Source of the DNA: Pontibacter sp. G13
GTDB taxonomy: Bacteria > Bacteroidota > Bacteroidia > J057
Direction of reading: 5' to 3'
Assembly: GCF_031851795.1 (NCBI RefSeq)
Contig: NZ_CP134697.1
Location: forward strand, 1 to 43,116
Length of the DNA: 43,116 nt
Part shown: positions 1,290 to 43,116 of the stretch, in pieces
How positions within the stretch are numbered: the stretch's first letter is position 1
Layout: the number at the start of each line of letters is the position of its first letter
Notes under the pieces: model-generated
What the model saw: the letters and a program-made list of their open reading frames with translations, nothing else
What the model was told of the DNA's origin: nothing
Database searches by the model: none
Translations under genes and position numbers: made by a program

Positions 1290-3353
1290 TTGCTGGAACT
1301 CGATCCGTTTTCCATGGATTTCCAGGGACGTTCCATATACTTCCAGGGATATCTCTCCAATGACATGGAAGCATTGGCCGCATTCATGGAAGCATTCACC
1401 GATGAACGACAAAAGCGGTACATCCTTCAGGCACCCACCGGAGCGGGAAAGACCTACTCCGTCTTCCGAATCGTTGCGCAACAAGTCGCCACAGTGGAAA
1501 CGCCACTGGTGTTCTCCGCTCCCCTCACCCTTCAGCTGGAACAATTTTCCCAAACCTATAGCGCGCCAGTCGTCCATGCGGAATCCACCAGCGAGACGCT
1601 GAAATCCCTCCATGACCAATCCGTCATCCTGTGCACTTTCGATTCCCTCCATCGGGTTGAGGAAACACTTGGAACCCGAAAATGGCGAAGCTGTACAGTG
1701 TGCTTCGATGAAGGCCATCAGTTAGCCATGGCCGCTCAGGACAACTACAAACTCAGACCTTATACCCGGTCCTTTCAGACTGCGGAACGGGCAAATCGGA
1801 TTGTCATCATCTCCGCGACCCCACATCCCTATTTCGTAGACATGGACTTCCAGTATGTCCAGTTCATCCAGCGGGACACCACCCCCGTAGAAGTCATACC
1901 CGTCCAGCTCCCATCCAGTAACAAGCAACAGGTGGATGCAACTGCCATCCGGATGATTGCCCTACATGCATCCGAGCAGGACCAGATTCAGCTTGTATTT
2001 CTCGATAGTAATGATCGATTGGAGGGATACCGGGATCAATTAATTGCCTCCGGTGCATACACCCCAAAGGAGATTGCCTTGATTTCCCGACGGGCAAGAA
2101 AGGATGAGGGACTGGATGGAATCGTGTATCGGAGCATCGTCGAACAATCCGTCATCCCAGCAGGGATTCGGGTGATCCTCTGCACACGGATCCTATCCGA
2201 GGGCATCAGCCTGAACAATGAACATATCGGGGTGGTCCATCTGATCGAAGTGGACAATCAGGAACTATTTGCCCAGTTCCCTGCACGGGCTCGGAAAGTG
2301 GACAAAATAAGGGCCTACAGCTATCTCCCGGAACGGAAAGTCTTTACCCGATCTTCCGGCTATGCCGCCAATATGATCGAGTACAAGAAATTGGAGGCGG
2401 AATCTGTCGCCCAATCCTACAACCAGAAATATGATGATCGATCCTCCAGGCTACGGGGAATCTCGGAATACTACGACCGAAAGGTACGAAGGGACATCCT
2501 GCGGGACTCCGAGCCCAGCCTGCTCATTGCCCCCAACTACATGTCCGGCCGTCCGGAAACCAACCACCTGTTCATCTTCAACCAGCTGATCGAGCAACGG
2601 GACCTCGGTACAGACAGAAACACCTTCTACCGGATCCTGGACAAGCGATATCCACACATTTCCATCCTGCCGGAGCTCTCCCTCCCATCCGAGGATGAAC
2701 TCTCCGAAAACCTCAAGATCTCCAAGGAGCAGAAGCGGAAACTCAAACAAGACAGTCGGGAAGAACTGTACGATGCCTTGATCGAAAATCCCCAGGCGGT
2801 ATTCGCAGCAGTGGCCACCAGCGACCGCCGGTCCGATCTCGTGCAGCAATGCGACCGACTCTCCCGGGCGACTGCTCCAACACAAGATGCCACGACTGCA
2901 GTCAAATCCGCCATGCGGCATGGAGAAACCCGCCCCATCTGGCAGGCCCTGACGATCGAGCAACTCGGCATCCCGGAAGACGTCGGCAAAGCCCTTCTCT
3001 CCAAACGGTGGGACAACAAGAAGTTCTCCCAGATCCGAGAAGCCATCCGCACCCAGCAACTGATGATCACGGGCGAGGTGGAACCAGCCTCTTTCGAGGA
3101 ACATGAGACCCTGAGAGCCCACGCCTTGCTACTGGATTATTTTGAAGGACTCGAACAGGAAGCCATCCGGATCGATGCTCTGGAGGCGAAGACGCTCCTC
3201 AAGGAGATCACAGGGCACGACTATGGTCGCGGTGCGATAGCCTTCCTCCGGAGGTTCTTCAAGGTTGATACCCGAAAGGGGAGCTATCTGATCCATGGGC
3301 TGCTCTCCCTCGATGGGATTTATCAGGACCTCTCAGTAAGTTTCGAAAAGTGA
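1290..3353 (+). CDS. SF2 DEAD/DEAH-type helicase, probable replication protein
   Basis: A 687-residue ATP-dependent nucleic-acid helicase/translocase of superfamily 2. Visible motifs are Walker A APTGAGKT at residues 48-55, a DEGH box (140-143, a DEAH variant), motif III SAT (175-177), and a motif-VI-like QFPARARK near residue 325. The C-terminal 300 residues are helical and unrecognised. As written the frame opens with TTG at 1290, or ATG at 1314. However, it is open and protein-like back to 1143, so the present start is probably internal to a once longer protein broken by frameshifts. It lies next to repeats and opposite the ParA cassette across the presumed circle junction, which suggests plasmid replication. 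A restriction- or defence-type helicase is the alternative. Confidence 0.75.
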   Translation: MLELDPFSMDFQGRSIYFQGYLSNDMEALAAFMEAFTDERQKRYILQAPTGAGKTYSVFRIVAQQVATVETPLVFSAPLTLQLEQFSQTYSAPVVHAESTSETLKSLHDQSVILCTFDSLHRVEETLGTRKWRSCTVCFDEGHQLAMAAQDNYKLRPYTRSFQTAERANRIVIISATPHPYFVDMDFQYVQFIQRDTTPVEVIPVQLPSSNKQQVDATAIRMIALHASEQDQIQLVFLDSNDRLEGYRDQLIASGAYTPKEIALISRRARKDEGLDGIVYRSIVEQSVIPAGIRVILCTRILSEGISLNNEHIGVVHLIEVDNQELFAQFPARARKVDKIRAYSYLPERKVFTRSSGYAANMIEYKKLEAESVAQSYNQKYDDRSSRLRGISEYYDRKVRRDILRDSEPSLLIAPNYMSGRPETNHLFIFNQLIEQRDLGTDRNTFYRILDKRYPHISILPELSLPSEDELSENLKISKEQKRKLKQDSREELYDALIENPQAVFAAVATSDRRSDLVQQCDRLSRATAPTQDATTAVKSAMRHGETRPIWQALTIEQLGIPEDVGKALLSKRWDNKKFSQIREAIRTQQLMITGEVEPASFEEHETLRAHALLLDYFEGLEQEAIRIDALEAKTLLKEITGHDYGRGAIAFLRRFFKVDTRKGSYLIHGLLSLDGIYQDLSVSFEK

Positions 3354-3406: not shown

Positions 3407-4213
3407 GATCCCTATTCAGACAAGAGCCGAGGCGAGAACCATTCCAGCGGGATGCCTACAGAAATCCCGATCCCCTACTCGATCCGGAGCTTGTGAAAGC
3501 AATACCGGAGCTGGCTGCGGCACCATTTTGAAATGGCCTTGTTTATGAATAATCGGCTGTCCCATCCTTCAAACAGGAATTGGCTAATATTCAACGTTTT
3601 CCCTTCCAAAAAAGGAAATCGGCTGAATTAAGGGGCGCGAAACCGAGTGCACCCATTATCGGAATTAAGGCGATGAAGGTGATTTTCGGTGATATCTGAA
3701 AACGGACAAGAGGTTTGCTGTAGGGGATTTCGCCCTTTTAAGGAGTACTGATTTTCCAGACCCTTGAGGTAATAGCATGGGAATTACCAGAAAATACAGA
3801 TATGCGTCCCTAATGATTCCAGACTTATTCCAAGCTTATTTCAGACTTATTTCCGGCATGATTATCTGAGATAATCACAGATTTTCGACGATTTTCTGAG
3901 ATTTTTTCAATTTTTCAAAATCGTTGAAATTATTTCCACTCTTCCTCGAAGGTGTCAAAATCAAAGGCTTCTTTTTCTTTCATTTTATCGTGTCATCTCT
4001 AAATTTAAACTTTTAGAGTGACTCAGTTAATTGAACAGTCTTCTTTTTTGTATTGCCTTTCAAGGGAAATAAGAGTGGCAATAAATTATTAGAAGAATAG
4101 TTCTTGTTTGCTTTGGCTCTCCAATTCCTAACATAGTAAATCATCATTATTATGGTTAATCGTACATTTAATAATTACTTTGCCGTCAAAGTACAATAAT
4201 TAGTACTTGACTA
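3407..4213. other. Non-coding region, candidate origin
   Basis: About 800 bases without a credible gene. It holds three tandem 10-12-base repeats (3821-3854), a 7-bp hairpin (3860-3866 with 3870-3876) and then an AT-rich, repetitive stretch to about 3950 in which GATTTTC and GATTTT recur. Iteron-like repeats beside AT-rich DNA next to a helicase gene would suit a plasmid origin. This is inference only. Confidence 0.35.
3821..3854 (+). repeat. Three tandem iteron-like repeats
   Basis: AGACTTATTCCA (3821-3832), AGCTTATTTC (3833-3842) and AGACTTATTTCC (3843-3854) follow each other without spacers. An imperfect palindrome at 3860-3876 lies just downstream. Confidence 0.45.
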
Positions 4214-5913: not shown

Positions 5914-5982
5914 AAACCCGAGCGAAATCCCCGTTTCTGGGATCGCTCGGGTTTCTCTCAAAAACATCCGTTTTTGAGAGAA
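5914..5982 (+). terminator. Two tandem strong hairpins
   Basis: The first is a 12-bp perfect stem (5914-5925 with 5943-5954). The second is a 13-bp perfect stem (5953-5965 with 5970-5982) with a 4-base loop. They overlap by two bases, so they cannot both form fully. They separate the protease gene from the toxin-antitoxin pair. Confidence 0.7.
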
Positions 5983-7160: not shown

Positions 7161-7352
7161 ATGAATCAGTCAGATAGACTAACTGTAGCAGAGGTTTCTA
7201 AAATTGCATCGGAAAGGGCTGGATTTGAAGTACCTGAGAATACGGTGAGATCTTGGATAAAGCGGGGTCAATTGCCGGTAAAGAAGATCTTTGGGCGTGT
7301 ATTTGTAAGTAGGGAGGATTTGGAAAAGTTTCTCTCAGATAAAGTCGAATGA
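7161..7352 (+). CDS. Small excisionase/MerR-type helix-turn-helix protein
   Basis: A 63-residue DNA-binding protein of the excisionase/HTH_17 type. LTVAEVSKIASERAG is the first helix pair, NTVRSWIKRGQLP the recognition helix, and RVFVSREDLEKFL the wing and last helix. Such proteins bind DNA as architectural factors in excision, or as plasmid/phage regulators. It stands alone between a terminator and a 300-base gap, so its target is unknown. A related C-terminal fragment (DREELDQFIAENVE) lies at 12297-12362, suggesting a second copy was once present. Confidence 0.7.
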   Translation: MNQSDRLTVAEVSKIASERAGFEVPENTVRSWIKRGQLPVKKIFGRVFVSREDLEKFLSDKVE

Positions 7353-7645: not shown

Positions 7646-7653
7646 AAAGGAGG
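7646..7653 (+). promoter_or_regulatory. Strong Shine-Dalgarno site
   Basis: AAAGGAGG lies 6 bases upstream of the ATG at 7660. Strong Shine-Dalgarno sites are uncommon in Bacteroidota. This one selects the start at 7660 over the in-frame ATG at 7462, whose following 66 codons are not protein-like. Confidence 0.7.
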
Positions 7654-7659
7654 CCATCC

Positions 7660-9120
7660 ATGTTTGACCAGTTCAAGGCCATCCTCTACGCATTTAGCGG
7701 GAAATTCAAGGGACACAATTTCCTGAAGAAGGGATTCTGGTTCTTCGTGGCCGGGATCATGCTGGCCATGGTGATCCTCACCTACAATGCATTCATGTCC
7801 TTGCAGTTTTATGGCGATCTGTTGGAGAATCTGGCCGGCATCCGGTCCGAATGGATCCCCTATTTCGTGACCGTGAGCATTGCACTTGCGGCATACTGGG
7901 GCATCTCGTTTTTGGCGGGATCGCTATTGGACATGTGGCACGGGCGGCGTCATCGCGTCGAGGAACATATCAAGGTCATTTGCTTTGCCGGGGTCTTCCT
8001 GATCCTACTGGTGGCGTTGGATGTGTACGCCAACCTCAATGGAGTGAAGGTCGCAGCAGCATTGGCCACGGTTCCCCAGGCAGCGGACCGGACGACCGAG
8101 ATCATTGACCGATACGATGGCCAAGTCGCCAACCTCCAGCAGGAAATCAGGGACATCCAATCCTGCAAGATCAAGGGGTACTGTTGGCGGGGAGCCGTGA
8201 TCAAGGAGGGGCGTCAGCGGATTGCCTCGATCCAGCAGGAGATCAACGGACTCCGCAGGCAGCAGGAGGCGCAGCGAACCCACGCCGAGCGGGCCCATGA
8301 GAACGACCACGAGCGGTTTGTGATGGAGCGCAGCGAAAAAGAGGACGCCCATACTTCCCTGGTGTTCTTTGCCTATCCCCTTGCATTGTTGTTGTGCCTG
8401 TTTACCGGGCACTATGCGGATCGGGCGATCGCCTATGTCGAGGGGGAAGAGGAATTTCAGCCCAAACGGTATCACCCGGATTTGCACAAGGGAATAGGCT
8501 TTGATGCACCATCAGGCCAAAAGCCCTATGTCAATCCCGTGATGGGCTTCCAGACAAGAGCCAATGAGGATCCCAGAGATCGGGAAATCCGGGAGATGCG
8601 GAAGCAGATGGAGGAGCTACAACGGATGGTTAAGGCCAAGCAGGAACAAGCGACCCAATCGACGAATTCACCGGCAGGTGTTCCCCTTGAGAAAGGGAAC
8701 AACCCGAGGAAAAAGTCAGGTCTCTTGGGACGGGCTTTGGGGACCTTGGACCGGAAGTTGGATGCTGTGGAGCAAGGAAATCCGAAACCGGAAAAACCAC
8801 AAGATTCGAAGGAAAATTCGCCCAAAGTTTCGAGTCCATCGGCACAAGGAAATGTGCAGCATTTCGGGTCGAATATCTTCATCGGAGATCCCCCGGACAA
8901 CACTGGGAAGACCTACAACATGAGTCACAGCCAGGGCCGGAAATTGAAGAAAGTCGAGAAGGCCTATCACCAGCTGAGGCCAGATGAGAATCATCATCTC
9001 CCCAGCCAAAAGGAGGTTGCGTCCCGAGCGGGGATGACCTCCGAGACAGCGGCCAAATACCTCAAAATCCTGAATCTCCCCACGAGGGGAAAACGGGGTA
9101 GGGGAGGTGTGGTCCTGTAG
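7660..9120 (+). CDS. Four-helix membrane protein with periplasmic coiled coil and C-terminal HTH
   Basis: 486 residues from ATG 7660. Predicted order: TM1 about 25-47, TM2 about 66-90, TM3 about 104-124, a charged coiled coil about 140-235 with two cysteines (SCKIKGYC), TM4 about 236-256, then a long soluble tail. The tail has a second short coiled coil (REIREMRKQMEELQRMV), a low-complexity Pro/Ser/Lys linker, and at the end SQKEVASRAGMTSETAAKYL, a helix-turn-helix, followed by a basic tail. With the N-terminus inside, the coil falls outside and the HTH in the cytoplasm. It would therefore be a membrane-tethered DNA-binding protein. I do not recognise the family. A role in anchoring or sensing for plasmid replication or partition is inference; the repeated CTCACAA sites just downstream are candidate targets. 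Confidence 0.65.
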   Translation: MFDQFKAILYAFSGKFKGHNFLKKGFWFFVAGIMLAMVILTYNAFMSLQFYGDLLENLAGIRSEWIPYFVTVSIALAAYWGISFLAGSLLDMWHGRRHRVEEHIKVICFAGVFLILLVALDVYANLNGVKVAAALATVPQAADRTTEIIDRYDGQVANLQQEIRDIQSCKIKGYCWRGAVIKEGRQRIASIQQEINGLRRQQEAQRTHAERAHENDHERFVMERSEKEDAHTSLVFFAYPLALLLCLFTGHYADRAIAYVEGEEEFQPKRYHPDLHKGIGFDAPSGQKPYVNPVMGFQTRANEDPRDREIREMRKQMEELQRMVKAKQEQATQSTNSPAGVPLEKGNNPRKKSGLLGRALGTLDRKLDAVEQGNPKPEKPQDSKENSPKVSSPSAQGNVQHFGSNIFIGDPPDNTGKTYNMSHSQGRKLKKVEKAYHQLRPDENHHLPSQKEVASRAGMTSETAAKYLKILNLPTRGKRGRGGVVL

Positions 9121-9187
9121 CAATTTCCGAGCGAGATCATACTCCAGCTGCCGCGAGGCGGCTGGAGATTTTGAGGGCCAAAAGAAT

Positions 9188-9260
9188 TTTGTGAGTTTTT
9201 GAAAAACGTGTGAGACCCTCACAATACGGCTCACAATACGTTCATAAAACGCTCACAATT
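9188..9260. promoter_or_regulatory. Cluster of five CTCACAA-type sites
   Basis: Direct copies of CTCACAATACG lie at 9218-9228 and 9230-9240, with a third, CTCACAATT, at 9252-9260. Inverted copies (GTGAG cores) lie at 9188-9195 and 9207-9214. This is an operator or iteron-like array. A smaller set recurs at about 12400-12420 beside the KilA-N gene. Confidence 0.5.
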
Positions 9261-9371
9261 TGGTCAAAAAGCCGTCAAAAAGGCTTTTAGGGCCTTATTG
9301 ATAGAATGAGGCAAATAGCTGAACTGTACGCACTTTGCGTACAGTTTTTAAAACCCCTCGAATTCGAGGGG
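9250..9371. repeat. Direct repeat DR1 (122 bp), partner at 12410-12532
   Basis: Nearly identical to 12410-12532: four substitutions and one single-base gap by eye. It contains the CTCACAATT site, the terminator hairpin at 9322-9346 and the 18-bp palindrome CCCCTCGAATTCGAGGGG at 9354-9371. Beyond 9371 it continues to match a different place, the inside of the KilA-N gene (13150-13188), so DR1 is chimeric. Confidence 0.85.
9322..9346 (+). terminator. Rho-independent terminator in DR1
   Basis: A perfect 10-bp stem (9322-9331 with 9337-9346), 5-base loop, then TTTTAAAA. It is followed by the palindrome at 9354. It probably ends transcripts from the membrane-HTH gene. Confidence 0.7.
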
Positions 9372-9494
9372 ATTAAAATTGGGGTTTTTGAGTACCTATC
9401 TAACTGGTAAATACTGCAGTATATGTAGACTCTAAAAACTACATCAATTCTTAGAGTTGAGAAATCGAGTTAATAATCATTCTGGCCTTCAGAT

Positions 9495-12307: not shown

Positions 12308-12362
12308 CATCGACCGGGAAGAATTGGATCAATTCATAGCCGAGAATGTGGAACAGCAATAA
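12297..12362 (+). pseudogene. 3' fragment of an excisionase-type HTH gene
   Basis: Reads GGFNIDREELDQFIAENVEQQ and stop. This resembles the C-terminus of the small HTH protein at 7161-7352 (RVFVSREDLEKFLSDKVE). It starts inside the IS5-type remnant in another frame, so the element or a deletion removed the 5' part. Confidence 0.45.
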
Positions 12363-12409
12363 GCCTAGCTATGCTACCCGCCCCTAAAAATTGTGAAACT
12401 CCCACAATA

Positions 12410-12532
12410 CGCTCACAATTTGGTTAAAAAACCGTCAAAAAGGCTTTTAGGGCCTTATTGATAGAATGAGCCCAAATAGCTGAACTGTACGCACTTTGCG
12501 TACGGTTTTTAAAACCCCTCGAATTCGAGGGG
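12410..12532. repeat. Direct repeat DR2, partner of DR1
   Basis: Copy of 9250-9371. It carries the CTCACAATT site, the terminator hairpin (12483-12492 with 12498-12507, one G-U pair) and the palindrome at 12515-12532. Together with DR1 it bounds about 3.0 kb holding the two small-ORF modules, the membrane gene and the IS remnant. Confidence 0.85.
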
Positions 12533-12536
12533 TTTT
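12483..12536. terminator. Bidirectional terminator pair beside KilA-N gene
   Basis: A 26-bp perfect palindrome (12511-12536, A-rich and T-rich flanks around CCCCTCGAATTCGAGGGG) starts within the KilA-N stop codon, and the GTACGC hairpin lies beyond it. Both can end transcription from either side. Confidence 0.65.
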
Positions 12537-13365
12537 AATTATCGAGCTTCTTGAGTTGCTCATCTTGGGCCAAACGGTTGTACTGGGATACAGCAGCTTT
12601 GGTAAGAATTTGGTATCTGGTTTCCTTATCCTTTCCATCCTCGATGAGAAAGGCATTTAGGCTCTCCAGATTGGCGAGTACGTTAAGTTGGAGTATATCG
12701 GCATTGTCACGAATGTTTCCTTGTTTGGCTAGATCTGGGTTTGTTTCCCGCCATTGTCTAGCTGTCATTCCGAATACTGCCAGATTCAGCAGATCGGCTT
12801 CATCCGCATAGATGATCCACTCCCTATTCTTTGGAGCTTGAATGGCTGGGATCAGCACGTCCCTTATTACTCCTGTATGTAGCCTGTAATTCACCTTAGA
12901 CAAAAATCTGCGGTGATCCCATTGGCCCTTGATGCGCTGGATCTCCTCAGTTTTGAGTCTGTCGAACTCAGAGATGAGCAATAGTTTAAACTCTGCAGAG
13001 ATGTGGCTACCAAACTCGAAAGCAATCAGCTTTTCAGCGTATGTTCCCCCATTCCTGCCCCGCTTTGTGGTAATTCCAATGGCTGCAGTCTTGGTAATCC
13101 ATTCAGAGGGAGAAATGGTAAATGCGTTTTCTCCTGCATGTTCCATAATCCCCTCGAATTCGAGGGGATTAAAATTGGGGTTGTTGAGACGCTCCCATGC
13201 AGCGAGGAATCTTAATGTATTTCGACCCCGCATCCAGTTGCCGATTACTTGATCCGGACGGGGAAGAGCCTTCACCATGTCCGTAAGGGATATGTAGTCG
13301 GAACCATCAACTTGCTTGAAATTGATGGAGATCCCCTGAACGCTGATTTCGTTGCGCTTTGCCAT
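12535..13365 (-). CDS. KilA-N domain protein
   Basis: 276 residues from ATG 13365 (an upstream in-frame TTG at 13395 is less likely). The KilA-N DNA-binding core spans about residues 8-110. Visible pieces are DYISLTDMVKAL, VIGNWMRGRNTLRFLAAWE, and later TYAEKLIAFEFGSHISAEFK. The C-terminal half is helical and unassigned. KilA-N proteins occur in phages and plasmids as DNA-binding regulators or accessory replication factors. The segment NPLEFEG is encoded by the same 18-bp palindrome found in DR1 and DR2. A fragment of this gene lies at 9354-9392, showing an earlier second copy. Confidence 0.8.
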   Translation of the reverse strand: MAKRNEISVQGISINFKQVDGSDYISLTDMVKALPRPDQVIGNWMRGRNTLRFLAAWERLNNPNFNPLEFEGIMEHAGENAFTISPSEWITKTAAIGITTKRGRNGGTYAEKLIAFEFGSHISAEFKLLLISEFDRLKTEEIQRIKGQWDHRRFLSKVNYRLHTGVIRDVLIPAIQAPKNREWIIYADEADLLNLAVFGMTARQWRETNPDLAKQGNIRDNADILQLNVLANLESLNAFLIEDGKDKETRYQILTKAAVSQYNRLAQDEQLKKLDN

Positions 13366-13486
13366 TTTGGGTTCAATTGAGTAGCAAGATTGCAATTAGA
13401 ATGCGAAAATTCCCAACCTGACGACGAATGGCGGTGGGGTTTCCGATTTCGCTGAAGAAGGTAGCTCAGTTGATTCATTAAAGCCA

Positions 13487-34800: not shown

Positions 34801-37800
34801 AAAGATCACTCCAGATGAGGGAGATGTCTCCACGCCAGGCGTGACGGAGTTCTGGTATGATGCACTGGGGAGGCTGGTAGTCTCGCAAGATGCCGAGCAT
34901 CGGTCGAATGGTCTGTATTCCTATACCGTATATGACGATCTGGGACGGATTTCAGAAGCGGGATTGCTGAATCCTACCGGCACGATGACCAACGCCATCG
35001 CAGCGGATCAGGTGGCACTTTCAGCCTGGGTTTCCAGTGGGAGCAAACAGGAGGTGACCCGGACTCACTACGATAGCCATCCCGCAGGACTCAACCTTCC
35101 ATTCGCCTCCAATGATCACAACCTCCGTAACCGCATCGCGACTGTGGAATATGAATATCTTGCAGAAGGGGCCTACCTTTCCCGGATTCACTATTCCTAT
35201 GACAGCCGGGGAAATGTCAAGAGCTTGATCCGGGATTTCCCTGAATTGGCCGACATTGGCCATCAGTTCAAGCGGATCGACTACCACTATGACTTGCTGA
35301 GCGGAAATGTACTGCAGGTGGACTACCAGGATGGACATCCTGACTGCTTCTACCACAGGTACAAGTACGATGCGGACAACCGGATACAGGAGGTCTACAC
35401 GTCCACCGACAATGTGCACTTCGATCGGGAGGCCGGATACCAATACTACGCACATGGTCCGCTCGCGCGGCAGGAGATCGGTGCATGGGACGTACAGGGG
35501 ATGGACTACGCCTACACCATCCAGGGATGGCTCAAGGGTGTGAATGCTTCCACCCTCGACATGACCCGGGATATGGGAAAGGATGGTGCTTCCGGAAATG
35601 CCTACCACTCGGGAATGCCGGATGTACATTACCTGCATGGAAGAGACGCATTTGGGTTTTCGCTGGGATACTACGAGGGGGACTATGCCTCCATCTCGGC
35701 TCCAGCCACCGCGGACCGTTTCGAGGCATCGACAGCGACCATCTATGCCAATGTCAACGACCTTTCCCTCTACAATGGAAACATCGGATTGATGCAGACC
35801 GCACTCTCCGGACTTGACGCGGTTCCTCTTCCGGAACAGCTTACCCATTACCGGTACGACCAGCTCCAACGGATCAAGGCGATGAAGGCCGTCCAGGACC
35901 CCGGTCTCCCGGCTTCGAATGAATGGGCCACCGCTTCATCGCTCAATGGAGGGGACTATAGGACCTCCTATTCCTACGATGCCAACGGGAACCTCCTCTC
36001 GCTCGACCGCAATGCAGCGGGGGGATCTTCCGTCAACGGCATGGATGCCCTGACCTACAACTATGACCACGACCCCATCACCGGCAAGCTGAGGTCCAAC
36101 AGGCTGGGGAGCGTGGCAGATGCGCAGGGACAGGGTTGGCAGGTCGATATCGGGAATCAACCCGCCAACAACTATGCGTACGATCTCGCCGGCAACCTCG
36201 TCTTCGACCAGGCGGAGGGGATCGCCCAGATCAACTGGAATGCCGCCCGGAAGATCTCGTCGGTGCTTTTCGCGGACCCGACGCGCAGGGATCTGTGGTT
36301 CCAGTACGATCCGCTTGGAAACCGTATCCGCAAGCGGCAGCAGAGCAAGGACCTGCCACCCGAGGTCGGATCGGAAAGTTCATGGTACGTGCGCGATGCC
36401 CAGGGCAACAACATGGCCATCTACGAACGGTACATGATCCCGATCGGGGATCTGGAACCTCCAACATCGGATGATTTTCCGGAGGGATTCGACAATTGCA
36501 ACTGCGACCATGTCGAGGTGTTCGTGGCCGCGGAATACGAGCTGTACGGCTCCAAACGGCTGGGAAACTGGCTGGGCAGGCGCTTCCTGACGGGGCGGTT
36601 CTATGACTCGTCGGTGGGCACGACGGGGAGCTACACGGGGCCGATTTTCGACTTCCCGGAGGGATATCATCCGGATCGGAGCAACCCGACCGCTCCCGAG
36701 GCGACTGCATATGGAGGTCCGCTCTCGGCAGGGACCTTCTCGCTGGGGCACAAACGCTTCGAGGGCACCAACCACCTCGGCAATGTCCTCTCGGTCTTCT
36801 CCGACCGGAAGTTGCAGATCCCCGCTCCAGGCATGCAATATGTGGATGGGTACACGGCGGAGATCTATGGATATAGCGATTACTTTCCCTTCGGGATGCT
36901 CATGCCGGGTAGGAATGGGCAAAGGGATGGGTATCGGTATGGGTTCCAGGGGCAGGAGACGGATGATGAGGTGTATGGGAAGGGCAATGCCGTGAGCTAT
37001 AAGTATCGGGTGCATGATGCGCGGATTGGAAGGTTCTTGTCGATCGATCCACTGGCGCCGGAGTATCCGTTTTATAGTCCTTATGCTTTTTCTGGAAATC
37101 GGGTGATTGATGCAGTGGAGTTGGAGGGGTTAGAGCCTTCGTGTACTCAAGCTCCTATTGAGATTCGTCCAGAACTAGGCAAGACTTCAGTGGCTCCTGA
37201 TGGTACTTTAGTGGATAGTGATGGTGTTCCAGTCGCCTTTTACGATGTAGGGGATGAAGTTGAAGTCATAGCAGAAAGAACTAAACCCTCGTTTTCTCCG
37301 GGTTTTAGGATTCTTAGTATGTTTGCGTTCTTCATGTCCTTAGATATGTCTTCTAATAGCAGAGGAGCGACCACTAGAGAAAGACGGCGTATTGATGATG
37401 AGCGAAGGAGAGAAGAAGGGAGAGTTGACTTTGCTTTAGGGCTAGGTGGATTAAAAATGGAGGGCCGTAATAAGGCAGATCCAATGTCTAACTTGATGAT
37501 ATGGGCAGGCTATTTCTTAATGTCTGAAGGCGAAACTGCTGATACTTACTGGGATCGAGATGGATTTACTGGTGATCCAAGAGTCGATGTTTTGTATATG
37601 ATGAATGAGACAATTGCTAAGGGTAATAAGCTGCATTTCAGACTAGATGGACTAGGACTAACAGGTCTAGATGGTGCTCAAGAAGAGGACACATGGGATG
37701 ATTTACCCAAAACCATTCAAGGGCTTAGGGAAAGGTTAAATACACAAGGAAGAAGTGAGGGTTCATATACGATATATGAACTCCAACAAGTGATGAGCAA

Positions 37801-38514: not shown

Positions 38515-38640
38515 GGGAATGTTCAGAAAAGTGTGTCAACCACCCCTCGAACATGGGGCTGGGAAATGACCCCACAAAAAACTTCCTCCCCCAACAAGCC
38601 CGGATCTGACCCCCATCGAAACCAGATCCGGGCTTTTCCT
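38515..38640 (+). repeat. Post-cassette repeat 1 with terminator
   Basis: Starts with GGGAATGTTCAG, followed by AAAAGTGTGTCAAC (38515-38540), and ends with a perfect 13-bp terminator hairpin (38596-38608 with 38623-38635) followed by TT. The same arrangement recurs at 40938-41060. The two copies bracket the orphan RHS cassette. Confidence 0.75.
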
Positions 38641-39096: not shown

Positions 39097-39595
39097 GGGA
39101 TCGCCCAGATCAACTGGAACCTCCAACATCGGATGATTTTCCGGAGGGATTCGACAATTGCAACTGCGACCATGTCGAGGTGTTCGTGGCCGCGGAATAC
39201 GAGCTGTACGGCTCCAAACGGCTGGGAAACTGGCAGGGCAGGCGCTTCCTGACGGGGCGGTTCTATGACTCGTCGGGGAGCTACACGGGGCCGATTTTCG
39301 ACTTCCCGGAGGGATATCATCCGGATCGGAGCAACCCGACCGCTCCCGAGGCAACTGCATATGGAGGTCCGCTCTCGGCAGGAACCTTCTCGCTCGGTCA
39401 CAAGCGGTTCGAGGGCACCAACCACCTCGGCAATGTCCTATCGGTCTTCTCCGACCGGAAGTTGCAGATCCCCGCTCCAGGCATGCAATATGTGGATGGG
39501 TACACGGCGGAGATCTATGGATATAGCGATTACTTTCCCTTCGGGATGCTGATGCCGGGTAGGAATGGACAGCGGGATGGGTATCGGTATGGGTT
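39097..39595 (+). repeat. Rearranged copy of RHS core
   Basis: Bases 39097-39119 match 36218-36240 and bases 39114-39595 match 36452-36945. The junction falls on the shared CTGGAA, so 217 bases of the parent are missing. That deletion puts the left part out of frame with the rest. Confidence 0.85.
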
Positions 39596-40430
39596 TAATG
39601 GACAAGAAAAAGATGACGAAATAAAAGGAAGTGGAAATTCGGTGAACTTCAAGTTCAGAATGTATGACCCACGAATTGGAAGGTTCTTTGCTGTTGACCC
39701 GTTAGCTCCTGATTATCCTTGGTACACTCCGTATCAATTTGCGGGAAATACACCTATCATGGCAATGGATTTAGAAGGTTTAGAGCCTGCGTCAGTCGTA
39801 ACAAAGACATCAAATAATAGATATCAATTCACGGAACCTGCAATAAAATTGCTTAGCTGGGCATCAGGAGTAGACGAGCAATCAATTAGAGATGTTAGAG
39901 TTAAGAAACGAGCACCTATTCCTTTTGGAATTCCATGGTATCCTTCTAATGCTGGAGGCGGAGGGTTAACTACGAAAAAGATAATCCGTTTAACGCCAAA
40001 CTTTTTTGATAATACAGGGAAGTATAAGTTTAAAGACAGAAAAGGGAGGTATGGTCCAAAAGGAGCAGAGTACAATCAGAGTGTTGGAGATGACGTGATG
40101 TCTTGGTTAAGTCTAAATTCTCATGAAGTCGGTCATATTCCACAAGCTCAAGAATACAAGACGACAATGGGATATTTCATTTCATTTATTGTTGAGTATG
40201 CAAAAGCAGGAAGTCATGATGGAGCAGGGAGAGAACAAGAAGCTGATGAAGGGAGAAAGAAGTTTAATGATTTTGTTGATTTTACCAATAAAGAATATGG
40301 TCAAGATGCGATAAAGAACTTATTTGAGGGTGACCAAACAGATGAAGAAAAAAATAGCACTTTAGACACCTGGTTTAAATCTTATGAGGAAAATAAGCAA
40401 GGCGGAAATGAAGGAGGGGAAGATGAATAG
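39180..40430 (+). CDS. Orphan RHS tip with metallopeptidase-like toxin domain
   Basis: A 416-residue frame from GTG 39180, although as a silent cassette it may not be translated by itself. Residues 1-138 repeat the RHS core of the big gene. Residues 139-200 are a second version of the core end (GRFFAVDPLAPDYPWYTPYQF, then LEGLEP). The rest is a different toxin tip. It holds SHEVGHIPQAQE with HExxH at 315-319 and a downstream REQEADEG, with Glu354 a candidate third zinc ligand. This is the signature of a zincin-type metallopeptidase. No signal peptide or shell is present. It becomes the tip of the giant protein if recombination occurs across the shared core. A lipoprotein gene overlaps its end. 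Confidence 0.75.
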   Translation: MFVAAEYELYGSKRLGNWQGRRFLTGRFYDSSGSYTGPIFDFPEGYHPDRSNPTAPEATAYGGPLSAGTFSLGHKRFEGTNHLGNVLSVFSDRKLQIPAPGMQYVDGYTAEIYGYSDYFPFGMLMPGRNGQRDGYRYGFNGQEKDDEIKGSGNSVNFKFRMYDPRIGRFFAVDPLAPDYPWYTPYQFAGNTPIMAMDLEGLEPASVVTKTSNNRYQFTEPAIKLLSWASGVDEQSIRDVRVKKRAPIPFGIPWYPSNAGGGGLTTKKIIRLTPNFFDNTGKYKFKDRKGRYGPKGAEYNQSVGDDVMSWLSLNSHEVGHIPQAQEYKTTMGYFISFIVEYAKAGSHDGAGREQEADEGRKKFNDFVDFTNKEYGQDAIKNLFEGDQTDEEKNSTLDTWFKSYEENKQGGNEGGEDE

Positions 40431-40937: not shown

Positions 40938-41060
40938 GGGAATGTTCAGAAAAGTGTGTCAACTGCTCCTTGACCTGAACTAGGGATTGCCCCCACAGAA
41001 GCTGCCACTCACCAAAAAGCCCGGATCTGATCCCCATCGAAACCAGATCTGGGCTTTCAA
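40938..41060. repeat. Post-cassette repeat 2 with terminator
   Basis: Copy of 38515-38640. It starts with the same 26 bases (40938-40963), has a diverged middle, and ends with a 14-bp hairpin (41016-41029 with 41044-41057, one G-U pair). The hairpin also lies 20 bases past the stop of the minus-strand partition gene and can terminate it. Confidence 0.75.
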
Positions 41061-41076
41061 TTTTAGAATCAAACCC

Positions 41077-41493
41077 TTACTTCCCCTTCAACTTCGCAAT
41101 CTCCTCCTGCAGGCGGTTGAGGTCCTGTATCTTCTTGAGGACGTCGGTATTGACATTCTCCTGGAGGTAGGTCTCGATCGCCTCATTTATGATTTCTTTG
41201 ATCTTGAGGCCCTCCAGGGAGCTGTAGCTCTTTACGATGCTGTATAAGCCCGTGTCGATCAGGAAGGTGTAGGTACGGTCCTTGCCGGAGCGTTCGACCT
41301 TCTTGGATGCCTTGACGGGCTTGGGAACCACAACGGCTCGTTTGGCCTCCGGCTCGGGGGCTGGTTGAATAGATTCCGGCCCTGCTACCTCAGGATCGGA
41401 CTTGGGCGGCTCCACCTCCTTGGAGATCTTCGTGACCTTCGCCGCATTCCCCATTTTGCTGGGATCAATGATTAACGCTTTCCTTTTCGCCAT
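41077..41493 (-). CDS. Partner gene of ParA (small ParB-like/centromere-binding candidate)
   Basis: 138 residues from ATG 41493, overlapping the 3' end of parA by 29 bases. The N-terminal 75 residues are basic and Pro-rich, suggesting a flexible DNA- or ParA-contacting arm. The C-terminal part (TYTFLIDTGLYSIVKSYSSL, then EIINEAIETYL) resembles a small ribbon-helix-helix-like dimer domain and ends in a coiled coil (LNRLQEEIAKLKGK). It lacks the domains of a full ParB. Small RHH or coiled-coil adaptors with this gene order are typical centromere-binding partners of plasmid ParA. The assignment rests mainly on gene position. Confidence 0.6.
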   Translation of the reverse strand: MAKRKALIIDPSKMGNAAKVTKISKEVEPPKSDPEVAGPESIQPAPEPEAKRAVVVPKPVKASKKVERSGKDRTYTFLIDTGLYSIVKSYSSLEGLKIKEIINEAIETYLQENVNTDVLKKIQDLNRLQEEIAKLKGK

Positions 41494-42286
41494 TTTCTAC
41501 GCCTTCGTTGGTGAAACGCTTCAAGAATTCATCTGCCAGGGCCTCGAAGGCCTTAGCTCCCTTACTCTCTGGATTGTAGTCGTATACCGTCTGTCCCTGT
41601 GCCTGGGCTTCGGAGATGGCCACATTCACGGGGATCATGGACTCGAACACCAGCTCCCCCAATGGCCCGTCCTTGAGCAGGTTCACTAGCTCCCAGGTGA
41701 GGGAGCGGGACTTGTTGAGCATGTTGATGATGATCCCCCCAATCGCCAGATCCGAGTTCTCGATCTCTTCCACGAAATCTTGTACCCCCTGAATGAAGAT
41801 GTCCACGCCTTTCACTGGGAGGAACTCCGCAGTCGTCGGGATCAATACCATGTCCGAAATCGCCAGGGCATTCTGTGTGACCAGACCTAAGTTCGGTGGA
41901 CAATCGAGCAGCACGATGTCATACTCCCCTACCACATCCTTCAAAGCACGGGCAAGGAGGCGCTCACGATTCACCGCTCCGGAAAAGTCCAAATCCGCCC
42001 GGGCCAACAAGATCGAGGCCGGAATCAGATCGACATCCCCAAATCGGAAAATCGCATCCTCGGGCTTGAGTTGCTTATCTCCCTTTCCTGCTTTGGCCGC
42101 CATCAATTCATAGACTGATACATCCAGTTGGGAGAAGCCCACATTGCACGACATCGTCAAATTGGCCTGGGCATCCATGTCCACCATGAGGACACCGAAT
42201 CCGCGCCGAGCCAGGGCAAAGCCCAAGTTATGGGTGACGGTCGATTTACCGACTCCGCCCTTGAAGTTCGCGATGGAAATGATCAT
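41465..42286 (-). CDS. parA: ParA-family partition ATPase
   Basis: 273 residues from ATG 42286. The deviant Walker A KGGVGKST lies at residues 9-16 (FKGGVGKSTVTHNLGFALA), Walker A' MVDMDAQANLT near 34-44, and Walker B IVLLDCPPNLG near 124-134. The length fits the ParA/Soj type Ib, without an N-terminal HTH. The protein moves plasmid copies over the nucleoid by ATP-dependent DNA binding. It is first in the operon with the 138-residue partner, and the long AT-rich region upstream (42300-42550) is the likely parS/operator. Confidence 0.9.
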   Translation of the reverse strand: MIISIANFKGGVGKSTVTHNLGFALARRGFGVLMVDMDAQANLTMSCNVGFSQLDVSVYELMAAKAGKGDKQLKPEDAIFRFGDVDLIPASILLARADLDFSGAVNRERLLARALKDVVGEYDIVLLDCPPNLGLVTQNALAISDMVLIPTTAEFLPVKGVDIFIQGVQDFVEEIENSDLAIGGIIINMLNKSRSLTWELVNLLKDGPLGELVFESMIPVNVAISEAQAQGQTVYDYNPESKGAKAFEALADEFLKRFTNEGVENGEKESVNH

Positions 42287-42319
42287 GGGTTATCTGAGGT
42301 TTTGGGTGGTTCGAAACAA

Positions 42320-42545
42320 TAAATACTAGTTACTAAATAACAACTATAATTTCATATTCTAAAACATAAGAACTATAAACCTCTATTCTAGAAATAGATA
42401 ATAAATACTATAAACTTCTATTTATAAGTTAATAATCTTAAAACCAATAACTACTAGTTAATAACTGAGAACTAAAAATTTATAACCTATAAATAAATAT
42501 TACCAAATAATAACTAATAACCTATACATGGACAATATTTGTTAT
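42320..42545. promoter_or_regulatory. AT-rich degenerate repeats upstream of parA (candidate parS/operator)
   Basis: Short recurring words fill this region: ACTATAA (three times, near 42344, 42372 and 42409), ACTAGTTA (twice), ATAACCTATA (twice) and AATAAATACTA (twice). Type Ib partition centromeres often lie as repeats upstream of parA. Assignment is by position and repetition only. Confidence 0.4.
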
Positions 42546-42994
42546 TCTTTATTCTTTTATTTTTTATTTATTATTCTACGAATAGATGAACATAAATCAT
42601 CACTGCTAAATATTTATCGATAAATATGACCGAATACTCTCGGCAAAATCAGCAATAATATTGAAAATAAGCTGAGAAAAAATGGAACATTAAAACGGGA
42701 CTCCATGCTAAAAAAAGTGATTATATGCAATGTATGACACGATATTCGACAACGGTTACCCAATAGGGAGCAACCCTTGGTGGTACGATATATAATATAT
42801 TAACTAAATATGAACATTTCCATGTAGTGTTTTTTGAGCTTGGTTTATGCCTAAAAAAAGCTCCAAAGGGTGTTTTAGTACAAATTTTTATACTAAAACA
42901 ACTCTTATATAGTATAATTGCAGTGTAGTTGTTAAAGAGATTAACTTGATAATAGCTACCAATTCCAGGTAAAAGGATCCTTCCTTCCTATCTG
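42546..42994. other. Non-coding AT-rich region with palindrome and hairpin
   Basis: No gene. It contains the 18-bp perfect palindrome ATATTTATCGATAAATAT (42610-42627) and a 10-bp hairpin (42871-42880 with 42891-42900, loop of 10). These may be protein-binding sites or RNA structures of replicon control. Confidence 0.45.
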
Positions 42995-43116
42995 GATATC
43001 CAGTCAAACAAACTGATTGTAACGAAACAACTTTAAGCCGAAGCGTGAGAAACTTCGGCTTATTGTTTTTTAGAATCTGCTCTTCCCATAGGTTTTCACC
43101 GTCAACCTATTCCCCC
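42995..43116. repeat. Terminal repeat unit, copy B
   Basis: Partner of bases 1-136. It has a 9-bp perfect stem (43035-43043 with 43053-43061) followed by ATTGTTTTTT, so the plus strand has a good rho-independent terminator form. If the molecule closes at the window ends, copy A begins at the very next base. Confidence 0.55.

Follow-up and report, generated by a model that had tools for sequence, protein, structure and literature searches.

A mobile-element membrane protein with a predicted DNA-binding end in Pontibacter sp. G13, and the duplicated repeat stretch beside its gene

The window analysed here, 43,116 bases of Pontibacter sp. G13, is the entire contig 2 of a 7.67-Mb genome in three contigs and is probably a plasmid. 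It carries a gene for a membrane protein, P0001, followed closely by a cluster of CTCACAA sites. An earlier note on this DNA had proposed that the protein is a membrane-tethered DNA-binding protein and that the array is linked to it, so that the pair might anchor the plasmid to the membrane or connect an outside signal with plasmid control. The locus therefore raises the question of what such a protein does on a mobile element, and whether the array belongs to it. P0001 is a real, unusual, mobile-element-linked membrane protein with a probable DNA-binding end, and the CTCACAA array most likely does not belong to it as a dedicated partner. We tentatively favour the reading that the gene encodes an inner-membrane protein that tethers the DNA of the element, or a DNA-protein complex.

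A membrane protein family with differing C-terminal ends

The P0001 gene starts at the ATG at 7660, which is preceded by AAAGGAGG. Most relatives share this start point: in the family alignment, five of six rows open with MFDQ, MFDN or MFDT, and L007 has a longer start. Hydropathy gives four transmembrane (TM) helices (Table 1), and the distribution of lysine and arginine fits an N-terminus inside, a loop between TM3 and TM4 outside and a C-terminus inside. An AlphaFold2 model that used seven family members (mean predicted local distance difference test score, pLDDT, 71; predicted template modelling score, pTM, 0.44) consists of a helical bundle and a long coil, with helices at residues 97-136, 145-167 and 182-261. 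The four helices of the earlier note, and its outside coiled coil with two cysteines (Cys169 and Cys175, in the TM3-TM4 loop), were thus borne out. Beyond the fourth helix, pLDDT falls below 50 at residues 265-303 and 336-420, with a helix in between, and the C-terminal end is modelled as helices 423-438, 450-457 and 461-471.

Modelled separately with four relatives, the C-terminal 72 residues again gave three helices (9-24, 36-43 and 47-57) in helix-turn-helix (HTH) order, with a mean pLDDT of 73. The HTH assignment rests on these structure models and on a weak profile match. Against a profile built from the HTH ends of four relatives, the C-terminal piece reached 15.6 bits and full-length P0001 11.7. 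The highest score among 1000 shuffles was 8.6, yet left-out relatives scored 55-92, and for this reason we regard the HTH as likely but divergent. Pfam HTH_ParB (PF17762) matched residues 19-62 of the 72 with an expect value (E) of 0.0055 and 17.3 bits, below the curated cut-off of 22.6. Comparison of the HTH model with solved structures gave middling scores (best Foldseek E 0.26; VIA Z at most 6.0, with many TetR-type DNA-binding domains and no ParB among the rows shown), which would fit a common HTH arrangement and establish no family. The cytoplasmic C-terminal HTH of the earlier note stands as a prediction, and topology and structure prediction, together with relatives that keep the membrane part with different ends, support the membrane-tethered DNA-binding architecture as a whole.

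The family has no clear match in Pfam, NCBIfam or PHROGs, and SieB matches of two members (E 0.022) were judged to be chance. Searched with the whole model at E up to 0.001, the PDB gave no match and BFVD four proteins, the best an uncultured marine phage protein (E 4.3e-6, TMq 0.34). By eye, DUF4407 (PF14362) has the same order of parts, namely three membrane helices, an outside coil and one further helix, but it shows no significant relation to the P0001 family (best E 0.11). Homology was rejected at 12.2 bits against a cut-off of 31.3 and an hhalign probability of 3.9%; the alignment for this comparison took L052-L058 and left out L051 and L062, in which the longest open reading frame (ORF) is a different protein.

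Of 13 genomes of the host's bacterial family, 7 yielded members at E up to 1e-3 (5 with P0001 alone as query); nine genomes of other families within the order yielded none. In the class and phylum searches, no more than four candidates were scored in each genome. Six of 395 genomes matched in the class sample, all of them from the host's family, and one of 395 in the phylum sample, the window's own; the phylum draw seems not to have contained the known members, as those would have matched. Ten loci are known. Full-length members are present at seven (the window, three in G010, two in G009 and one in G006), and the remaining three, in G005, G008 and G002, are short or truncated. Identity to P0001 is 17-34% over alignments and 21-40% in local matches. 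With P0001 as query, tblastn found no match in 72,556 plasmid records (E up to 0.01) or in 50,697 phage records (E up to 0.1); L006 found none in plasmid or phage records and L007 none in plasmid records. No relative was found in viral_contigs, and genome_contigs gave nothing with P0001 and, with A3, one locus on the already known contig G009:C66 (JAUIKF010000001.1). Among the papers listed in a literature search, none dealt, judging by title or opening of the abstract, with such a protein family; in the collection searched, DUF4407 occurs in three papers and no paper mentions Saprospir, plasmid and KilA-N together.

Among these relatives the membrane part is kept while the C-terminal end changes. 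Four helices with the same spread of lysine and arginine were seen in five of the seven full-length members, the scan giving three helices in L003 and five in L007. One type of HTH ends five of the seven (P0001, L006, L007, L009 and L015), with P0001 the most divergent and weakly matching; L003 ends instead in a zinc-finger-like CxxC...CxxxC stretch whose Pfam matches are below cut-off, and L002 in a stretch with no Pfam match.

Gene neighbourhoods and possible function

Replication, transfer or integration genes lie near all six full-length relatives, at loci where some of the ORFs were scanned. The family gene of L032 begins 15 bases after a coupling-protein gene (E 4e-29); farther upstream, the same strand carries genes for DUF5712 (E 4e-86) and TraG P-loop (E 4e-72) proteins. 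On the 176-kb contig of L029, coupling protein, ParA and Rep3 genes lie within 7 kb and a KilA-N gene is two genes off; its ParA and KilA-N are 39% and 45% identical to those of the window, and its coupling-protein gene, 4.6 kb away, adjoins a gene whose product resembles by eye, at its start, the DUF5712 protein of L032. DUF5906 genes are next upstream, within 0.6 kb, at L031 and L033. We take DUF5906 to be replication proteins and DUF5712 mobilisation proteins. L028 has a tyrosine integrase gene 250 bases upstream and an AAA_25 protein downstream, and L030 a phage replication O-type gene about 0.5 kb upstream (E 6.7e-9). An HTH_17 gene is present within 1.5 kb at five of the ten loci (the window, L028, L029, L030 and L070); L028 has two, the downstream one just under the cut-off, and the product of the one upstream of the relative in L030 is 36% identical to the excisionase-like HTH_17 protein of the window.

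Starting from what is predicted or observed, that is, the topology, the disordered linker, the family, the mobile-element setting and the change of C-terminal end, we infer oligomerisation, DNA binding and a purpose as follows. The four helices would hold the protein in the inner membrane, and the outside coiled coil could serve oligomerisation. The long, flexible inside linker would carry an exchangeable DNA-binding end that chooses the target site, and in this way replication, segregation or transfer complexes of the element might be kept at the membrane.

Several known proteins resemble P0001 in part. The p16.7 protein of phage phi29 is small, with a single membrane segment and a homeodomain-like end, and differs in its Bacillus host. 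SpdB2 of the Streptomyces plasmid pSVH1 and p16.7 were both likened to P0001 as DNA membrane anchors; such anchors are encoded by phage or plasmid, and P0001 too lies on a contig of its own, 43,116 bases long, with ParA. Excerpts of two papers describe p16.7 as an integral membrane protein that organises phi29 DNA replication at the membrane via terminal protein and single-stranded DNA (PMC4974454, PMC4446434). SpdB2 is involved in plasmid spreading, and a stabilising effect is reported for spdB2 of plasmid SLP2, but its DNA binding is described as non-specific and the relevant excerpt mentions no HTH end (PMC4170104). RocS of Streptococcus pneumoniae, RacA and Par of pSK1 combine an HTH with a coiled coil in DNA segregation, and RocS is also attached to the membrane; in the excerpt that describes them, however, their HTH is N-terminal, and RocS has a C-terminal amphipathic helix in place of four membrane helices (PMC11500499).

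A number of points weigh against a tether. P0001 stays below the cut-off of every Pfam and NCBIfam model, its HTH match to the relatives is weak, at 15.6 and 11.7 bits where they score 55-92 among themselves, and its DNA binding, though probable from the models, is a prediction. The end of L003 is not an HTH, that of L002 is without a Pfam match, and three of the ten members, the short or cut-off ones, show no C-terminal domain. Neither relaxase, coupling protein nor Rep3 was found among the window's scanned ORFs. The same anatomy would serve a transmembrane transcription regulator equally well, and this is the main rival, ranking close behind the tether although we consider it somewhat unlikely. 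Like ToxR or CadC, the protein would sense an envelope signal with its outside coil and, from the membrane, switch promoters of the element with its C-terminal HTH. Such regulators have at least one transmembrane segment, as hydropathy predicts for P0001, and a cytoplasmic DNA-binding domain; according to an excerpt of one paper they are common, and enriched in Bacteroidota (PMC10269533). The outside domain with its two cysteines, the predicted cytoplasmic HTH and the regulator-like HTH_17 gene at half of the loci would all suit this role. P0001 departs from ToxR and CadC in its four helices, its TM3-TM4 coil, its long linker and the exchangeable end on mobile elements. For a regulator, moreover, a very long disordered linker would be superfluous. 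Also against it, the ends of the relatives, either HTH or zinc-finger-like, differ in kind, and the genes identified around them serve replication, integration and transfer and form no single constant operon; the 500 bases before the window gene contain no repeat cluster, in a scan that a single operator would escape. A type IV secretion accessory or entry-exclusion protein, its DNA-binding end contacting the relaxosome, would account for the position of the family gene in L032 and for the coupling protein in L029 next to the DUF5712-like start, but L028, L031 and L033 show only primase-like or integrase genes nearby and the window has no transfer gene among its scanned ORFs, which makes this reading very unlikely.

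If P0001 is a tether, the family might even represent an unnamed class of mobile-element membrane tethers, in which a conserved membrane-and-coil module is joined, in each plasmid, integrative element or conjugative element, to an element-specific DNA-reading end, HTH or zinc finger. We regard this broader proposal as speculative and rather unlikely; if true, it would mean that within one bacterial family elements of very different kinds share a single way of keeping their DNA at the membrane. To our knowledge, the use of the membrane by Bacteroidota plasmids and other elements in replication, segregation and transfer has been little studied, and a membrane module with exchangeable DNA-binding ends would offer a testable handle on it.

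The CTCACAA array and its duplicated surroundings

The earlier note had counted five CTCACAA sites just downstream of the membrane gene. The array is real and lies there, spanning 70 bases and beginning 69 bases past the last base of the gene, with four exact sites and one with a mismatch. Single CTCACAA sites are not enriched in the window (7 against 4.8 expected; 25 of 100 shuffles reach 7); it is their clustering that is enriched, since the best 75 bases hold five sites, one mismatch allowed, and none of 60 Markov copies of the contig reaches five. Nowhere else in the contig does a 7-mer recur exactly four times within 80 bases, in a scan that left out 7-mers of fewer than three letters, and the 7.67-Mb genome has a single instance of three direct CTCACAA sites with gaps of up to 25. 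A CTCACAA-like cluster at 5955-5980 was rejected as overlapping matches on one hairpin. Six 11-base units in near-register include the array: five of 8613 overlapping 55-base windows reach this 10-12-base periodicity, the other four at 3801-3861, and none of 500 Markov copies of the region is as periodic.

The same stretch is strongly structured. As a single strand, 9121-9400 has a minimum free energy of -111.7 kcal/mol (shuffles -67.0 +/- 4.1, z -10.9), and among 358 windows of 240 bases the one starting at 9121 was the strongest (z -10.8) and that at 12361, over a second copy of the repeat, came next (z -8.7). Rfam gave no match. The membrane gene is absent at this second copy, which lies beside a KilA-N gene; CTCACAA-like sites there are at 12391 (-), 12401 (+) and 12412 (+), of which 12412 alone is exact. 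Before copy 2 are an IS4/5 transposase fragment (DUF4096 E 5.9e-5, below cut-off) and a peptide that resembles the HTH_17 C-terminus by eye, with no Pfam match. A DNA search of the 13 family genomes with 9121-9480 gave matches only in the contig itself, the second copy included.

Copy 1 also contains a piece of KilA-N coding DNA, and 9346-9386 is 88-90% identical to the KilA-N coding sequence of three plasmids, one from Parabacteroides and two from Aureispira. The coding copy would be the original and the intergenic copy derived, because the encoded motif, NPxF...E, is kept across KilA-N proteins: among six of them N, P, F and E never vary, and five conserve EF. The intergenic piece may be recombination debris or an antisense device. 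A perfect 18-base palindrome, CCCCTCGAATTCGAGGGG, occurs at 9354, 12515 and 13150, that is, in both repeat copies and inside the KilA-N gene; it is also present in the Parabacteroides plasmid stretch L085, with a variant in the Aureispira stretches L082 and L083. On these two Aureispira plasmids the KilA-N gene is an immediate neighbour of the replication initiator, with ParA close by, and plasmids of this kind may regularly include KilA-N in their replication regions.

We compared 500 bases on either side of eight of the nine relatives known besides the window, the G002 locus being left out. A comparable repeat cluster was seen at none of the eight, the best 7-mer cluster in 80 bases having two to three copies against four in the window. 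Within 1 kb, single CTCACAA sites were present at two relatives, at 10884 in L029 (inside the HTH_17 gene) and at 10275 in L032 (inside the family gene), with no array. Downstream hairpin z was -6.4 at L035, a short member, and -0.7 to -3.4 at the other seven, compared with -10.8 in the window; upstream values at the eight relatives were -0.2 to -4.7. The earlier note's link between gene and array thus failed, the array not being conserved with the gene in the relatives available. As it is part of a duplicated, hairpin-rich stretch that also holds the KilA-N coding piece and whose second copy is without the membrane gene, the array is most likely not a dedicated partner of the membrane protein. 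A recently acquired pairing is possible, since the relatives tested are all distant. The repeat cluster should therefore be taken as a separate, duplicated, hairpin-forming stretch and not be assumed to be a binding site.

That the array is nevertheless bound by P0001 and acts, beside the protein's own gene, as an anchoring or centromere-like site is improbable in our estimate. Its closeness to the gene, the 11-base helical phasing, the genome-unique direct sites and the recurrence of inverted and direct sites in the second copy would fit, but the eight relatives and the KilA-N-side copy speak against it, and the KilA-N protein, the HTH_17 protein or the ParA partner protein are equally possible binders. 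As for the array itself, a separate question, we lean only provisionally towards transcription terminators or an RNA or DNA hairpin-chain structure and away from any protein-binding array. Its folding energy, first in the scan with copy 2 second, and the position of the two copies after the membrane gene and after the KilA-N gene agree with this. A terminator, however, needs no 11-base periodicity, inverted and direct sites are retained in both copies under stems that are not the same, and the few differences between the copies include, by eye, no compensatory pair change.

Other features of the contig

Table 1. Positions of the features discussed, in window coordinates
Feature	Position	Strand	Basis or remark
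Helicase gene	1290-3353		
Excisionase-like small HTH_17 protein gene	7161-7352	+	Pfam HTH_17 E 4.9e-9; about 300 bases upstream of membrane gene
Likely ribosome-binding site AAAGGAGG of membrane gene	7646-7653	+	read from sequence
Membrane protein gene (P0001, 486 residues)	7660-9120	+	ATG at 7660, stop ends at 9120
TM1-TM3, residues 28-46, 72-90, 104-122	7741-8025	+	hydropathy, lysine/arginine spread, AlphaFold2
Outside coiled-coil loop, residues 145-231, with Cys169 and Cys175	8092-8352	+	hydropathy, AlphaFold2
TM4, residues 232-250	8353-8409	+	hydropathy
Cytoplasmic linker, long, mostly disordered, residues 265-420	8452-8919	+	AlphaFold2; helix 305-335 inside
Predicted C-terminal HTH, residues 423-471	8926-9072	+	AlphaFold2, weak profile match
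Chain of about six stem-loops	9121-9400		includes array as nested imperfect palindrome, then four more stem-loops
Hairpin just after membrane gene	9142-9167		fold prediction
CTCACAA array	9189-9258		exact at 9189(-), 9218(+), 9230(+), 9252(+); one-mismatch GTGTGAG at 9208-9214(-)
Six 11-base units, near-register, including array	9218-9284	+	starts 9218, 9230, 9241, 9252, 9263, 9274
Intergenic repeat copy 1	9243-9393	+	90% identical to 12403-12556
Intergenic repeat copy 2	12403-12556	+	extends over KilA-N stop codon
KilA-N protein gene beside copy 2	12535-13395	-	Pfam KilA-N E 3.6e-15
42 KilA-N coding bases recurring in intergenic stretch	13147-13188	-	95% identical to 9351-9392
Small partner gene, directly downstream of ParA gene	41077-41493		
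ParA gene	41465-42286		Pfam AAA_31, E 9.7e-47

No exact terminal overlap of the 43,116-base contig was found, and its circularity is not demonstrated; its ends, 1-136 and 42995-43114, are imperfect direct repeats of each other (76% over 136 bases) and would lie in tandem if the contig were circular. Rep3 initiator was absent from the scanned ORFs, the genome's single Rep3 match being on contig 3, the helicase gene has no relative in the plasmid collection, and the DnaA-box pattern is not enriched in the contig (4 found, 2.6 expected). Downstream of the helicase gene, the AT-rich stretch 3801-3916, with tandem repeats of 10 and 11 bases, is the most periodic part of the contig and a candidate origin with iterons. 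The ParA gene, its small partner and AT-rich repeats upstream at 42314-42636 make 41077-42640 a candidate partition locus; the GC content of 42287-43116 is 29%.

A CHU_C type IX secretion signal in the window points to Bacteroidota. On contig 1 of G000 (L021-L027) there are two full 16S matches and five weaker, partial or split ones. Finally, an RHS-repeat gene is partly duplicated (36452-37142 and 39114-39792, 86%) as the start of a second, shorter gene, and this duplication is flanked by a second pair of intergenic repeats, 38515-38636 and 40938-41057 (80%).
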